Assembly: GCA_947259495.1 (NCBI GenBank)
Contig: CAMYLV010000025.1
Coordinates: forward strand, 48,398-112,397
DNA length: 64,000 bases
Origin: an uncultured Desulfobacterales bacterium
Lineage (GTDB): Bacteria; Desulfobacterota; Desulfobacteria; Desulfobacterales; JAHEIW01
Direction of reading: 5' to 3'
Shown here: positions 2,622-39,685 of the stretch, piece after piece
Numbering within the stretch: position 1 is the stretch's first letter
How the letters are laid out: each line of letters opens with the position of its first letter
Notes under the pieces: model-generated
The model's input: the letters and a program-made list of their open reading frames with translations, nothing else
The model's database searches: none
What the model was told of the DNA's origin: nothing
Position numbers and translations under genes: made by a program

Positions 2622-5600
2622 CTATATCTTCTGGATGTTGACCATAAAGGCCTTGGTTTCTGGTATGCGCGTGTTGGGATCACCGGTGGAAGGCGTCAGC
2701 AGATTGGCGCTTTCCTCTTTGCCGCCGGCCGGCGTTTGCCATCCATAACACCACGGGAATCCCACCTGATGCACTTCGGTACCCAGTTTGCCGGCCACCT
2801 TCAGCGGCCTGAGCCGCTTGGTGACGATGGCAGTGCATTCCAACTGACCCCGGGCCGAAGTGGCCAGAACCCGCTCGCCATTTTTGATGCCCTTGAGTGC
2901 GGCCAGTTCTTCGCTCATCTCCACAAACACCTGAGGTTGCATCTCCATCAGCCAGGGTTGATGACGGGTCATCACGCCGGTCTGCCAATGCTCCACGACC
3001 CGATAGGTGGTGCCCACAAACGGATAACGCGGATCACAGGTTTTATAAACATCCGCCTTGGATCCATAAACCGCTGCGGTGGGATTGGTGTAGGTCGAAC
3101 TCATGAAGTTTCTCTCCACCGGACATTCCATCGGTTCGTAGTGTTCCGGCAACGGTCCGTCAGCGCGGCCCGGGCCAAATATCTGGCCGTGACCGTGTTT
3201 GCGCATGATAAATGCATGCTTGCTTTTGGGATTGGGATTTTCCAGGCTGCCCAGCGGGGGCCACCCACCATCGGGTACATCTCCGCCCGACCATTTGGCA
3301 CCGTCCCACTTGATGACCCACTGCGCCTTATCCCAGGGCTGCCCCTGCAGATCCACTGAAGCGCGGTTGTAAATGATACGGCGGTTGACCGGCCAGCACC
3401 AGGAAAATTCGGGATACAGACCGATGTTGTTGGGGGCGTCTTTGGTACTGCGCCGCGCTGCCATGTTGCCCTTTTCGGTGTAGCTGTTGCAATACAGCCA
3501 GTTGCCCGAAGAGGTGGATCCGTCGGCCTGCAGAGATCCAAAACTGGGTACCAGCGTGCCCTTCTTGTAGACTGTGCCTTTAATGGTCACATCTTTTAAG
3601 AAGTAGCCGTTGATTTCTTTGGCCACTGCATGCGGATCATACTCACCTTTGGTCAAATAATCCCATTTAAGATTGCGGATGGGTTCAGGGAAGGTACCGC
3701 CATCTTTGTACTGGGCTTTAATTTTATTGCCCAACTCCATGATGATCTGGCCGTCGGGCAGGCTCTTGCCAAGGGGTTTGGGTCCCTGGTAGCGCCACTG
3801 CATCCAGCGGCCGCTGTTGGTGATGCTGCCTTCTTTTTCAAACGACACTGCAGCGGGCAGGAAAAACACCTCGGTTTTGATCTGGGCCGGATCCACGCCC
3901 GGTCCGCGCCAGAAGGAGCCGGTTTCGTTGTCAAAAATGTTGACATTGACCATCCAGTCCAGATTTTTCATGGCTGCGCGGGTCTTGCCGGCATGCGCCC
4001 CGCTGCAGGCCGGGTTCTGCCCCCAGGCAAAAAAGCCCGCAAAAGTGCCCCTGTACATTTCATCAAACAGATCCAACCAGGAATAATGTTTGCCGTCATC
4101 GACTTTGGGCAGCCAGTCATAGCCATAATCATTTTTCGGAACGGCATTGTCGCCAAAGAACGATTTGAGCAGGCTGATGGAATATTTGGGATAATTTTGC
4201 CACCAGTTGGCGCTGATGGGATCGTTGCTCTTGGGGGTCCATTTCTGGTTGTAGGCCGCCAGCGAAAAGTTGGATGCCCGAGGGGTTTTCAAATAACCGG
4301 GCCAGATGTGCCACAGCAGGCAATGGTCGGTGGAACCCTGTACGTTGGACTCCCCGCGCAGGGCATTGACGCCCCCGCCGGCTACCCCCATGTTGCCCAG
4401 CAGCAGCTGAATGATGGCCATGGTGCGGATATTCTGGGTGCCCACGGTGTGCTGGGTCCAGCCCATGGCATACATGATAGTGCCGGCCCTGCCTCTGGCG
4501 CCGGTGGCGGCATAGGTTTGATAGATTTTCTTCAGATCGGCCTGGGGGGTGCCGCTGATTTGGGAGACCAGTGCGACATTGTAGCGGCTGAAATGTTTCT
4601 TTAAAATCTGAAACACACATCGCGGATGCGCCAGGCTGCGATCCATCTTGGGGACCCCGTTGGCATCCATCTCAAAGGCCCATTTACGCTTATCATATTT
4701 TTTGCCTTGTTGATTGTAACCGGCAAACAGACCGTCTTCAAAAGAGTAGTCCGTGCCCACAATAAACGGCGCGTTGGTATAGGCCGCTATATACTCCTTA
4801 TTGTAAAGCTTGTTGTCGATGATGTACTTGATCATGCCGCCCAGGATGGCAATATCGGTTCCCGAACGCATGGGCGCATAAAAGTCCGCCCGGGCCGATG
4901 TACGCGTGAAACGCGGATCGACACTGATGAGTTTGGCGCCGTTTTGCTGGGCCTCGCTGACATACTTAAAGGAAATGGGGTGGTTTTCGGCAGCATTGCT
5001 GCCCATGATTAAAATGCAATCACTGTTTTTGATATCAATCCAGTGATTGGTCATCGCGCCGCGTCCGAACGACTCTGCCAGAGCCGCAACAGTGGCGCTG
5101 TGTCAGATACGGGCCTGATGCTCGATATAGACCACCCCGATCGCCCGCATCAGGGCCTGATACGTCCAGCACTCCTCATTGTCCAGGGCGGCAGAACCCA
5201 CCGAGGCAATGCCCATGGTGCGATTGACGACCTGGCCTTTGGCATTTCGGGCCTCAAACGTGGCGTCGCGCGTGGTTTTTACCCGTTTGGCAATTTCCGT
5301 CAGCGCCCAGTCCCAGGAAACTTTTTTCCATTCCTTGGCATATGGCGCCCGGTACAGCGGCTGGGTGATGCGCTCGCTGTTTTCGGAAAGCTGCCGCAGG
5401 GCCGCTCCCTTGGAACATAGTGTGCCGCGATTGATCACATGGCCCGGATCGCCTTCAATATTGATGGCGCGCTTATCACCGGTTTTGGCCGTGTGCACAA
5501 TGGCACCGCAGCCCACCGCGCAGTATGGGCAGATCGTGGTGGTTTCTTTGGCATCCTGGATCTGGAGCATTTTGGCCTGGTCCCTCGCCGGTGAAAACAT

Positions 5601-35153: not shown

Positions 35154-37595
35154 ATGACTGCCGGAAATTCAAACATCGAAGTTGCGGTTGCTTTACCCGT
35201 TCATCATACCTTTACGTATAGCGTCCCGTCTTTCTTGAGCCCGTTTATAGCAGCCGGCAAACGCGTTCTGGTTCCATTCGGGCAACGCCGGGTAACCGGC
35301 TACATCTTGGGGTCTGCTACAGAAACCGAGCCGGCTGAAATCAAGCATATCTTGGATGTGCTTGATCAAGAGGCCTTGTTTCCGTCGTCGATGGTCCCTT
35401 TTTTTCAATGGATTTCCGATTATTATAAACATCCCATCGGGGATGTTATCAAAAATGCGCTTCCCGGCGGCCTTACGCTCTATGATTATGCATCGCTTAC
35501 GATTACAGCGGAGGGAAATGCGGCCTTAACGAATAATACCGTTACTTCTCTTCAGAGAGCGGTATTAAACCTGCTTGAATCCGGGCCCTGCCGCCTAAAG
35601 CACCTGAGCGACAGGCTGAACCAAAATGTGCCCGGCGCACTTATCCAGTCACTTCAACGCAGCGGATGGGTCTCAAAGACGCGAGAATTGAGGCCTGCTT
35701 CGACCAAAACCCGCACGGAGCGCCAGATCGCTCTTGCAAAATCGATTCCGTCTCAGGATCGACTTTCAAAAGCCCGCCATAAGATTATCGAAATTCTCCG
35801 TCAGCAAGGTGAAATTTCGATGCCCGCGTTAAAAAGGCAGGTACCCAGCGCAACCCGTCTGGTTCGGGCCCTTGAAAAAGATGGGTATCTGATCGTTCGG
35901 CATAAACGAATCTATCGGGATCCGTTTGGTGAGACCATTCGTGCGGATACGGCCTTTGACTTGAATGCCGAACAGCAAAGCGTCGTAGAGCGGGTCAATG
36001 ATAGATTGAGCCAAGGCTTTGCAACATTTCTTTTGCAAGGCGTCACCGGAAGCGGCAAAACAGAGGTCTACATGCATATCGCTGCTGAAGTCCTCAAGCA
36101 GCAGAAATCCGTTTTGGTGCTGGTTCCCGAGATTGCGCTGATCACCCAGATGGAGCGCCGCTTTCGTGCCCGCTTCGGAGAACGCATAGCCGTGCTTCAC
36201 AGCGGTCTTTCGGCCGGTGAGCGCTTTGATCAATGGAGTCTTATCCTGCATGGCAAGGTGGATATTGCCATTGGTGCGCGGTCGGCTATTTTCGCACCAT
36301 TTCCTGCGGTCGGCCTCATTATTGTAGATGAAGAGCATGATGCTTCCTATAAGCAGGAAAACAACTTGCGGTATAATGCCAGAGACCTTGCGGTGGTGAG
36401 GGCAAAACGTAACGATTGCCTGGCGTTGCTGGGGTCCGCAACACCGTCGATCCAATCCTACTATAATGCCCGATCCAAGAAATTTATTGAAATCAATTTG
36501 AAACAGCGTATCGAACGCCGCTCATTGCCCGCCATAAAAATCGTGGATCTTCGTGAAAGCATGGGATATCGGGGAGTTCGACGCTTTATTACACCTGAAT
36601 TGCACCGATCGATGAAAGACACACTTGATCGCAGCGAGCAGGTGCTGCTTTTTATCAATCGTCGCGGGTTTGCCAATTTTGTGCTCTGTCGATCATGCGG
36701 TCAGGCCTTGCGTTGTAAACATTGTGATATTTCCCTGACCTATCACCAAAAGGCCAATGCCCTTAGATGCCACTATTGTGGATTTTCCCGTGCTGCGACA
36801 ACCAGCTGTGACAGTTGCGGATCTTCGGGAATAAAAAAAATAGGACTGGGTACCGAAAAGATTGAAGCCACGGTGCAGAAACTTTTTCCAAAGGCCCGCG
36901 TCGCGCGTATGGATCGGGATACCACCACCCGTAAGGGAAGCATTTTTAAATTGCTCAAGGGTCTCAAAGATCAGTCAATTGATATCCTGGTGGGCACACA
37001 AATGGTGGCCAAAGGGCACGATTTTCCAAATATCACCCTGGTGGGAATCATCTGTGCCGATTTATCGCTAAGCTTTCCAGATTTTAGAGCCGGTGAACGG
37101 ACCTTTCAGCTGATTGCACAGGTGGCCGGTCGCGCAGGCAGAGGCGCTTCTCCTGGGCGGGTAATCTTACAAACCTATAATCCGGACCATTTCAGTATCT
37201 CAGCGGCGAAAGAGCAAAATTTTATTTCCTTCTACAAACAGGAAATCAATTTCCGCAAAACTTTGAATTTTCCACCGTTTTCAAGAATGATCCAACTTAA
37301 GATCTCTGGAAAAGATCAACAGCGGACCAAAGATTGTGCCGCTACTCTCGGAAATTTATGCCTGTCGTTGAAAACGTCAAACGCATCTGTTTACGCTTCC
37401 GTTGAAATCCTGGGACCCATTGAATCCTCTTTGACAAAAATTGCCCGCCGATATCGATGGCAAATCCTTTTGAAAGGCACGCGTGCCAGTGCCCTGCATC
37501 AATTTGTCGGCCAACTGATGGCCAACAATCCTGCTGTGTTCAATCGTAGAAGGGTGAGGGTTGTTGTAGATGTCGACCCCGTTTCACTCATGTAA
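35154..37595 (+). CDS. priA: Primosomal replication restart helicase PriA
   Basis: 813 residues. PriA is the 3'-5' DNA helicase that reloads the replisome at stalled forks. The N-terminal DNA-binding region (VALPVHHTFTYSVP) is followed by the helicase core with Walker A GVTGSGKTEVYM near residue 300 and DEEH box IVDEEHDASYKQ. The zinc-binding insert has eight cysteines (CRSCGQALRCKHC, CHYCG, CDSCG). GTEKIEATVQKLFP and QVAGRAGRG complete helicase domain 2. It is convergent to nothing and followed by a repeat, then the OmpA-DUF1573 gene. Confidence 0.97.
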   Translation: MTAGNSNIEVAVALPVHHTFTYSVPSFLSPFIAAGKRVLVPFGQRRVTGYILGSATETEPAEIKHILDVLDQEALFPSSMVPFFQWISDYYKHPIGDVIKNALPGGLTLYDYASLTITAEGNAALTNNTVTSLQRAVLNLLESGPCRLKHLSDRLNQNVPGALIQSLQRSGWVSKTRELRPASTKTRTERQIALAKSIPSQDRLSKARHKIIEILRQQGEISMPALKRQVPSATRLVRALEKDGYLIVRHKRIYRDPFGETIRADTAFDLNAEQQSVVERVNDRLSQGFATFLLQGVTGSGKTEVYMHIAAEVLKQQKSVLVLVPEIALITQMERRFRARFGERIAVLHSGLSAGERFDQWSLILHGKVDIAIGARSAIFAPFPAVGLIIVDEEHDASYKQENNLRYNARDLAVVRAKRNDCLALLGSATPSIQSYYNARSKKFIEINLKQRIERRSLPAIKIVDLRESMGYRGVRRFITPELHRSMKDTLDRSEQVLLFINRRGFANFVLCRSCGQALRCKHCDISLTYHQKANALRCHYCGFSRAATTSCDSCGSSGIKKIGLGTEKIEATVQKLFPKARVARMDRDTTTRKGSIFKLLKGLKDQSIDILVGTQMVAKGHDFPNITLVGIICADLSLSFPDFRAGERTFQLIAQVAGRAGRGASPGRVILQTYNPDHFSISAAKEQNFISFYKQEINFRKTLNFPPFSRMIQLKISGKDQQRTKDCAATLGNLCLSLKTSNASVYASVEILGPIESSLTKIARRYRWQILLKGTRASALHQFVGQLMANNPAVFNRRRVRVVVDVDPVSLM

Positions 37596-37984: not shown

Positions 37985-39061
37985 ATGGTCAGAAAAAAAT
38001 GGGTTTCTTTAATAGCGGTAATATTTGTCGTTTGCCTGGTGGCACATGCTTACGGGGCGAAAAGCGACCGTGCGCGAGTCGTTCAAGCGACCATCTATTT
38101 TAAAATCGAATCTGCTGAAATTGAGCCGGAATTTGAAAATGATTTAAAGAAAATTCAGGCAGCGCTTGAGGCGGATCCAGCTATGGGTCTGCGCATTGAA
38201 GGGCATGGCCATCAACAGGGCGCACCCCAAAAGAATCGCAAGGTTTCACAAAAACGCGTCCAGGCGGTAAAACAGTGGTTTTCGAAACACGGAATTGAAA
38301 ATAACCGGCTGATGACAATAAATTACGGTGGCGCTAAACCAGCAACTCCAAAGGATGGGCTCCAAGAGCCTTCACACAGCGAGCGCGTTGAGATTTTGCG
38401 GGTTTCCTTAAAGCTGCCGCTGGCGTTTCTGCCTGCCGGCCGTTACCAATTCGACACGGTTGTGGAAGGACAAGAAGTCGCTCATGATTTTATGGTTGAG
38501 AACAAGGGCTCTGCCCCGCTTAAAATTCAAAAAGTCAAAACCGACTGAGGGTGCACAGCGGCCTCTTATACGAGGCAGATCCCTCCCGGTGGTGAGGGCA
38601 AAGTTACGCTAAAGGTGAACACGAACAACAAGGGCGGTCACACAATCCAAAAACATGCCACTCTTTTCACAAACGATGAAAAAAATCCGCGGTTGAGACT
38701 TACCATTACCGGAAGCGTTGATAAATTTGTCACCATTCAGCCCAGGCGAGTTAAATTGCGGGGGGCTGCCGGAGACGAGATCAAAAGCAAAGTGACTATC
38801 ACCCCTGAAAAGAAATATCCATTCAAAATCGTGAAGATCAGCGCCAAAGACGGCAAAGACATTCGCTTTGAATTGTCGGAAGAAAAAGGCGAGAAAGGTC
38901 CGGTTTATGCGCTCTTGATTGAAAACAAGCGGTCACAGAAAGGGCGCTACTTTGATATGATCACTTTGGAAACCGACAGCAAGATTCAGCCAAAATTAAG
39001 TATAAGCGTTTTTGGTGATCTCCGGCAACGGACTGAAGAAACAAAAAAGCAAAATCAATAA
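37985..39061 (+). CDS. OmpA-like/DUF1573 exported protein with in-frame UGA (candidate selenoprotein)
   Basis: Read from ATG 37985 (GAAGGAGA upstream) to 39061, the frame contains a single TGA at 38546-38548 and no other stop, giving 358 residues. Residues 1-23 are a signal peptide. Residues about 28-140 are OmpA-like (ATIYFKIESAEIEPEF, LRIEGHGHQQGAPQKN, SERVEI). The C-terminal 190 residues start as DUF1573: FDTVVEGQEVAHDFMVENKG, then KVKTD-stop-GCTAASYTRQIPPGGEGK and NNKGGHTIQKHATLFTND. In DUF1573 the TGA position is normally the first Cys of the CGCT motif. So it is Sec188 in a U-G-C pair, or a TGC-to-TGA nonsense change. Recoding is plausible since fdhA in this window also needs Sec. Translational coupling to the HAD gene 6 bp later is likely. 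Confidence 0.7.
38546..38576 (+). promoter_or_regulatory. In-frame UGA with downstream stem, candidate SECIS
   Basis: TGA (38546-38548) is followed 12 bases later by GCCTC (38561-38565), loop TTATAC and GAGGC (38572-38576), a perfect 5-bp stem at the spacing usual for bacterial SECIS elements. The loop lacks the G that most known loops have near their start, which weakens the case. Confidence 0.4.
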
Positions 39062-39067
39062 ATCCAT

Positions 39068-39685
39068 ATGAAAAATATTCGTGTTGTTGCATTTGACTGT
39101 GACGGCGTTCTTTTTGACACCGAAGCGGCCAACTGGGCTTATTACAATCATATTTTGGAACATTTCGGCAGACCGGCGCTGACGGCGGACCAGTTTGCCT
39201 ATGCCCATCAGCACACATTGAATGAATCAATTGTGTACTTATTTGGTGACGACGAGAGCGTCGCTGCTGTGCACGCCTATCGACAAACGATGGATTACGG
39301 CGGGTTTCTTAAATACCTAAAAATTGAACCCGATCTGGCCCCGTTGCTCAATAAAATAAGGCCCCAATTTAAGACCGCTATTGCCACCAATCGTACAGAT
39401 ACAGTGGATCGGTTGCTCTCTGAATTCAATTTGACCGAATACTTTGATCTGGTGGTCACCTCTGTTGATATCCCACGTCCAAAGCCCTACCCGGACGTGT
39501 TGCTTAAAGTATTATCCCATTTTGACATTACCTCCGATCAGGCACTGTACGTCGGTGATTCACCGGTGGATGCCGAGGCGGCTGGTGCAGCAAAAATCCC
39601 TTTTGTTGCTTATCGGAATGAATCGTTACTCACACCGTATCATATTGAAAATTTAAAAGAACTTGAACGATTTCTGGAGGTCTAA
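39068..39685 (+). CDS. HAD-superfamily phosphatase (phosphoglycolate phosphatase-like)
   Basis: 205 residues. HAD motif I is VVAFDCDGVLFDTE with both aspartates; motif II is IATNRTD; motif III is the lysine in PRPKPYPDVL; motif IV is YVGDSPVDAEAA. The cap domain is alpha-helical as in Gph and beta-phosphoglucomutase. The substrate is not fixed. It starts 6 bp after the OmpA-DUF1573 gene and its stop overlaps the ribosome site of the next gene, so the three form a tight operon. Confidence 0.9.
   Translation: MKNIRVVAFDCDGVLFDTEAANWAYYNHILEHFGRPALTADQFAYAHQHTLNESIVYLFGDDESVAAVHAYRQTMDYGGFLKYLKIEPDLAPLLNKIRPQFKTAIATNRTDTVDRLLSEFNLTEYFDLVVTSVDIPRPKPYPDVLLKVLSHFDITSDQALYVGDSPVDAEAAGAAKIPFVAYRNESLLTPYHIENLKELERFLEV

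Follow-up and report, generated by a model that had tools for sequence, protein, structure and literature searches.

In eukaryotes, the selenocysteine codon redefinition element (SRE) is a hairpin located just 3′ of the UGA codon and separate from the SECIS, which lies in the 3′ UTR. The canonical bacterial SECIS (the Escherichia coli fdhF-type model) is a hairpin within the coding region downstream of UGA, with published elements having a loop 16–37 nt from the UGA and a G in that loop; some bacterial elements lie outside this published model (PMC13188914). With respect to selenoproteins containing a DUF1573 domain, OS_HP2, assigned to pfam07610 and carrying a UxC motif, is listed in a 2008 survey (PMC2398784), and two reviews include a DUF1573 selenoprotein whose motif is UGC (PMC9312934; PMC13188914).

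The gene described here lies on the plus strand, at positions 37985–39061, of a 64,000-nucleotide stretch of DNA from an uncultured Desulfobacterales bacterium (hereafter, the window). Its ATG at 37985 has a good ribosome-binding site, AAGGAGAG, upstream, and its frame consists of 359 codons including the final TAA, encoding 358 amino acids with UGA read as selenocysteine (Sec). The sequence-only reading had described the TGA at 38546–38548 as the sole stop inside this frame, as flanked on both sides by one domain family, and as replacing the first Cys of the DUF1573 CGCT motif; all of this was borne out, with a single DUF1573 domain spanning residue 188 (Pfam) and the motif reading UGCT. The N-terminus, MVRKKWVSLIAVIFVVCLVAHAYGA (37985–38059), reads as signal-peptide-like without a lipobox Cys, and the structure model places a helix at residues 2–28. 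It is followed by an OmpA/Pal-like peptidoglycan-binding domain (residues 38–125, 38096–38359; PF00691, 55.6 bits versus a cut-off of 27.2), by the Ig-like DUF1573 domain with the Sec-Gly-Cys motif formed by U188 and C190 (residues 153–245, 38441–38719; PF07610, 75.2 bits versus a cut-off of 26.1), and by a second Ig-like domain delineated from the alignment and predicted strands (approximately residues 250–347, 38732–39025) with an invariant KKYPFKI at residues 276–282.

The protein also scores 146.8 bits with NF041425 (NCBIfam OS_HP2 family (seleno)protein; cut-off 100), and one homolog is that of an Olavius-associated Delta 1 symbiont; OS_HP2 was named in organisms of this kind. The selenoprotein family is already catalogued and is not new: domain, Sec position, and motif of the window protein are the same as in the OS_HP2/DUF1573 selenoproteins. 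Unlike the window protein, however, most OS_HP2 members have no OmpA domain, and their usual layout is a signal-peptide-like N-terminus directly before DUF1573. The OmpA domain was found in eight distinct sequences examined, from the genus of the window and a few other families, and these members do not form one clade on the tree, with four changes required, at least two of which are forced by well-supported branches. No description of an OmpA–OS_HP2 fusion was found in the literature searched, which did not extend to the original 2007 report, and a plasmid search returned only partial matches, to either OmpA or DUF1573. The OmpA fusion of this known selenoprotein family may be new and, judging from its domains, would put a selenoprotein on the cell wall. 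In another member (L101, genome G207), a long near-perfect repeat of SSETAADVKA-like units lies between the signal peptide and DUF1573.

Scanning a genome collection with the protein showed the aligned codon to be TGA in 24 of the 24 relatives first found, in each case preceding GG(N)TG(C/T)—that is, U-G-C—with 37–72% identity to the window product in the aligned subset of these relatives; all three other species of the same genus also have TGA at this codon. More widely, a profile search detected the family in 344 of 389 genomes of the class, where most of the best matches listed have one in-frame TGA, and across 297 genomes of the phylum both UGA and Cys forms were recovered, again with most of the best matches having an in-frame TGA. 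The 115 loci read in detail comprise 85 with TGA, 25 with TGC, and 5 with TGT, a ratio that is not a frequency, as 28 of the 30 Cys loci were fetched on purpose as lacking an internal TGA. Homologs have either the U-G-C motif or Cys at this site, as membership in the DUF1573/OS_HP2 selenoprotein family requires. On the tree, several changes between Sec and Cys are needed, and some Cys forms sit inside groups of Sec forms (e.g., L086, L090, and L091 beside L102).

The host possesses a tRNA-Sec (75 bits) together with SelA, SelB, and SelD, all scoring above their cut-offs, and so has the full set that defines a Sec-decoding organism. The earlier statement that its fdhA needs UGA as Sec also holds, the window fdhA on the minus strand being interrupted by a TGA at 5105; this gene has an ordinary SECIS-like hairpin with a GG-starting loop 23 nt after the UGA. 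The host selD (L050, G000:C2:224486–225409) contains one in-frame TGA and a GGAGCU loop, and the selenophosphate synthetase SelD is probably itself a selenoprotein. The elements of both fdhA and selD have ordinary G-starting loops, about 18–23 nt from UGA.

Downstream of the TGA, a 5-bp stem with a G-less loop had been noticed from the sequence alone. This hairpin (hairpin 1, GCCUC-UUAUAC-GAGGC, 38561–38576, plus strand) is real, and the covariation that was to be looked for in its stem is found across the phylum; with TGA in 24 of 24 independent loci and this covariation, chance is far from a sufficient explanation. Compensated variants include GTCTC/GAGAC, GCCTC/GAGGC, GTTTC/GAAAC, and GCTTC/GAAGC, and the stem also occurs in a slipped register, as in TCTCTTT/AAAGAGA. 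All five fixed pairs are formed in 44 of 65 Sec sequences versus 2 of 30 Cys sequences, and of the 1596 column pairs at a distance of 4 or more, that between offsets 19 and 26 has the highest corrected mutual information, followed by that between offsets 16 and 29. The loop start 17 nt after UGA and the stem of 5 bp agree with the bacterial SECIS (bSECIS) ranges of 16–37 nt and at least 4 bp, respectively. A G in the first two loop positions, as in the canonical bSECIS, is absent in 121 of 123 Sec sequences, a figure that would drop for roughly one in four class members if the G of loops starting with G and ending with C (e.g., GTATAC), two bases that the program pairs with each other, were taken as a loop base.

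A second hairpin (hairpin 2, CCCUCCC-GGU-GG-(U)-GAGGG, 38581–38598, plus strand), which had been missed in the sequence-only reading, starts five nucleotides after hairpin 1 and has a GGU apical loop and one bulged base. It is encoded by the codons for Ile-Pro-Pro-Gly-Gly-Glu-Gly and lies within a conserved protein stretch, so that protein constraint had to be removed in testing it; in the null model, the protein was therefore held fixed and codons were redrawn from the usage of each gene. Against such synonymous recoding, the mean z in 123 Sec sequences was −2.74 for hairpin 1 and −2.06 for hairpin 2, versus −0.23 and −0.13, respectively, in 30 Cys sequences, with related sequences counted as independent. 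The windows flanking the hairpins before and after gave z values of 0.05 and −0.11 in the Sec sequences, and in the Cys sequences all four windows fell between −0.34 and 0.20. Codon choice within hairpin 2 is that which its stem requires: its Glu is encoded by GAG in 101 of 110 sequences versus a background of 38%, and its Ile by ATC in 95 of 111 versus 40%. Furthermore, offset 47 is C in 28 of 31 sequences with G at offset 39, versus 22 of 89 with C there (Fisher p 1e-10, related sequences again being counted as independent), an association that fits a register change within the hairpin. With the first 12 nucleotides taken as covered by the ribosome, both hairpins were predicted jointly in 86% of Sec versus 7% of Cys sequences.

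With respect to the bSECIS criteria applied to hairpin 2—a G in the first two loop positions, a small loop, and an energy of −7.5 kcal/mol or lower—the loop begins with GG in 116 of 123 sequences, and the GGU-loop hairpin of the window has an energy of −9.0 kcal/mol. The GG is also dictated by conserved Gly codons, making loop content by itself weak evidence for SelB binding. The loop starts 39 nt after the UGA in linear sequence, just outside the 16–37 nt spacing, or 23 nt after it when folded hairpin 1, which takes up 16 nt, is left out.

Two other foldings of this region were considered. Pairing of GGG (38549–38551) with CCC (38581–38583), which would give one long classical hairpin enclosing hairpin 1, was rejected, as its inner pair is broken without compensation in 5 of 25 sequences and the synonymous-site signal favors hairpin 2, to which this CCC also contributes. 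A stem of 38547–38550 with 38562–38565 pairs the UGA itself and excludes hairpin 1; it is favored over hairpin 1 in the RNAalifold consensus, but it is mostly invariant and hence uninformative. The UGA-containing stem may switch to the other structure upon arrival of the ribosome.

Taken together, the sequence comparisons very probably establish the UGA at 38546 as a Sec codon in a member of the known DUF1573 (OS_HP2) family followed by a conserved two-hairpin RNA. Of the earlier designation as a candidate new selenoprotein, the word selenoprotein is upheld by the conservation of UGA, the RNA structure tied to it, and the complete Sec machinery, whereas the word new falls to NF041425 and the reviews. 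The analysis thus settles the codon and avoids a report of novelty for a family that is already known. The conserved pair of hairpins after the UGA, on the other hand, looks new. No Rfam family was detected in the window, and when the genome was searched with a covariance model built on both hairpins, no other convincing match turned up (next best E 0.19).

Like the fdhF-type SECIS, the element described here lies in the coding region downstream of UGA, and hairpin 2 shares with that model the small GG-starting loop, a stem within 4–16 bp, and a bulge. It differs in having two separately conserved hairpins where one is usual, the proximal one without a loop G and the distal one 39 nt away in linear sequence (range of 16–37 nt in PMC13188914). 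Hairpin 1 may also be likened to the SRE in lying just 3′ of UGA, apart from the presumed recruiter of the Sec factor, with the difference that the SRE is eukaryotic and its SECIS is in the 3′ UTR. The conserved two-hairpin element is proposed to direct Sec insertion, with hairpin 2, through its GG loop and bulged stem, probably being the ligand of SelB. The folding of hairpin 1 would shorten the path between UGA and hairpin 2 from 39 nt to an effective 23 nt, within the usual 16–37 nt and in the range of the host fdhA and selD elements. Compaction of the spacer is the simplest reading of hairpin 1, which might also stall the ribosome in the manner of a redefinition element. The evidence leans slightly toward a distinct class of bacterial SECIS, composed of a proximal G-less compacting or stalling hairpin and a distal SelB-binding GG-loop hairpin, phylum-wide in one family and lost with the change to Cys. 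One Cys copy nested among Sec copies (L086, genome G018) has a hairpin 1 remnant (z −3.1) and is likely to be a recent Sec-to-Cys change, after which a leftover of this kind is expected.

The main competing explanation is that hairpin 1 alone is the SECIS, its G-less loop being read by a diverged SelB, and that hairpin 2 is a by-product or helper. The strongest covariation does belong to hairpin 1, its loop start 17 nt after the UGA is close to the 18–23 nt of the host fdhA and selD, and elements that do not fit the published model exist in bacteria (PMC13188914). However, synonymous sites of hairpin 2 are under a constraint of their own, solely in the UGA copies, and because the fdhA and selD loops of the host start with G, a single SelB would need two modes of recognition. 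This explanation is the less likely one, and SelB binding by hairpin 2 is given about twice the weight of SelB binding by hairpin 1. Since more than 100 genes have the two separately conserved hairpins, while ordinary G-loop elements occur elsewhere in the same host, the family provides a natural test case for distance measurement and RNA recognition by bacterial SelB, with the Cys homologs as natural knockouts of the insertion signal.

Sec codons in general terminate translation when Sec-tRNA is scarce, and the UGA could double as a regulatory stop, yielding at low selenium a deliberately truncated protein of OmpA plus half of DUF1573. A complete wall anchor is indeed encoded N-terminal of the UGA, but with OmpA absent from most family members, truncation would usually leave a mere broken domain, and such a function is highly improbable. 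Similarly improbable is that the hairpins are unrelated to Sec insertion and result from selection on the protein, at the motif and the IPPGGEG stretch: the amino acid sequence of this stretch is highly conserved, and the GG of the hairpin 2 loop follows from its Gly codons, but the Sec sequences, and not the Cys homologs, differ strongly from the protein-preserving null, with the signal residing in third positions, as in the GAG and ATC codons of Glu and Ile. Finally, a TGC-to-TGA nonsense change (a fresh pseudogene or a sequencing error), which the sequence-only reading had considered an equally good explanation, as the codons are one base apart and a single sequence could not exclude such a change, can be set aside in view of the same TGA in 24 of 24 independent assemblies and the whole genus, at identities for which a recent common mutation is far from sufficient, the frame open on both sides, and the RNA structure retained only in UGA copies.

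The AlphaFold2 model of the protein (mean pLDDT 87, pTM 0.60) consists of one domain of the OmpA type and two that are Ig-like. In the structure search, the first of these had the fold of the domains with which Pal and OprF bind peptidoglycan (target TM-scores approximately 0.7–0.85; approximately 0.8 for Pal), and this fold together with the PF00691 score places it in the OmpA/Pal-like class. For the remaining domains, the matches were to ciliary central-apparatus proteins, in their Ig-type domains, and to the Porphyromonas gingivalis protein 2qsv, the latter also being the one weak match in a sequence search of solved structures (E 0.013). Sec188 and Cys190 are invariant in the alignment and lie in a turn between the modeled strands 179–186 and 191–195. 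From these features, the product would be exported and anchored to peptidoglycan through its Pal-like domain, with an Ig-like domain displaying Sec-Gly-Cys on one of its loops and the Sec–Cys pair perhaps forming a selenenyl-sulfide. A Sec-Gly-Cys pair in a protein that also has a signal peptide and binds the wall through a dedicated domain would suggest a periplasmic redox site, a proposal held with about even confidence; metal binding would be a reasonable alternative. The neighboring genes are retained at most loci of the DUF1573 selenoprotein, which provides no pointer to function: priA (Pfam; 35154–37595, plus strand) lies upstream, with the same cluster at 28 neighborhoods including the window, and a HAD-family hydrolase gene (Pfam; 39068–39685, plus strand) begins 6 bp after the stop codon, with the same cluster at 31 neighborhoods.
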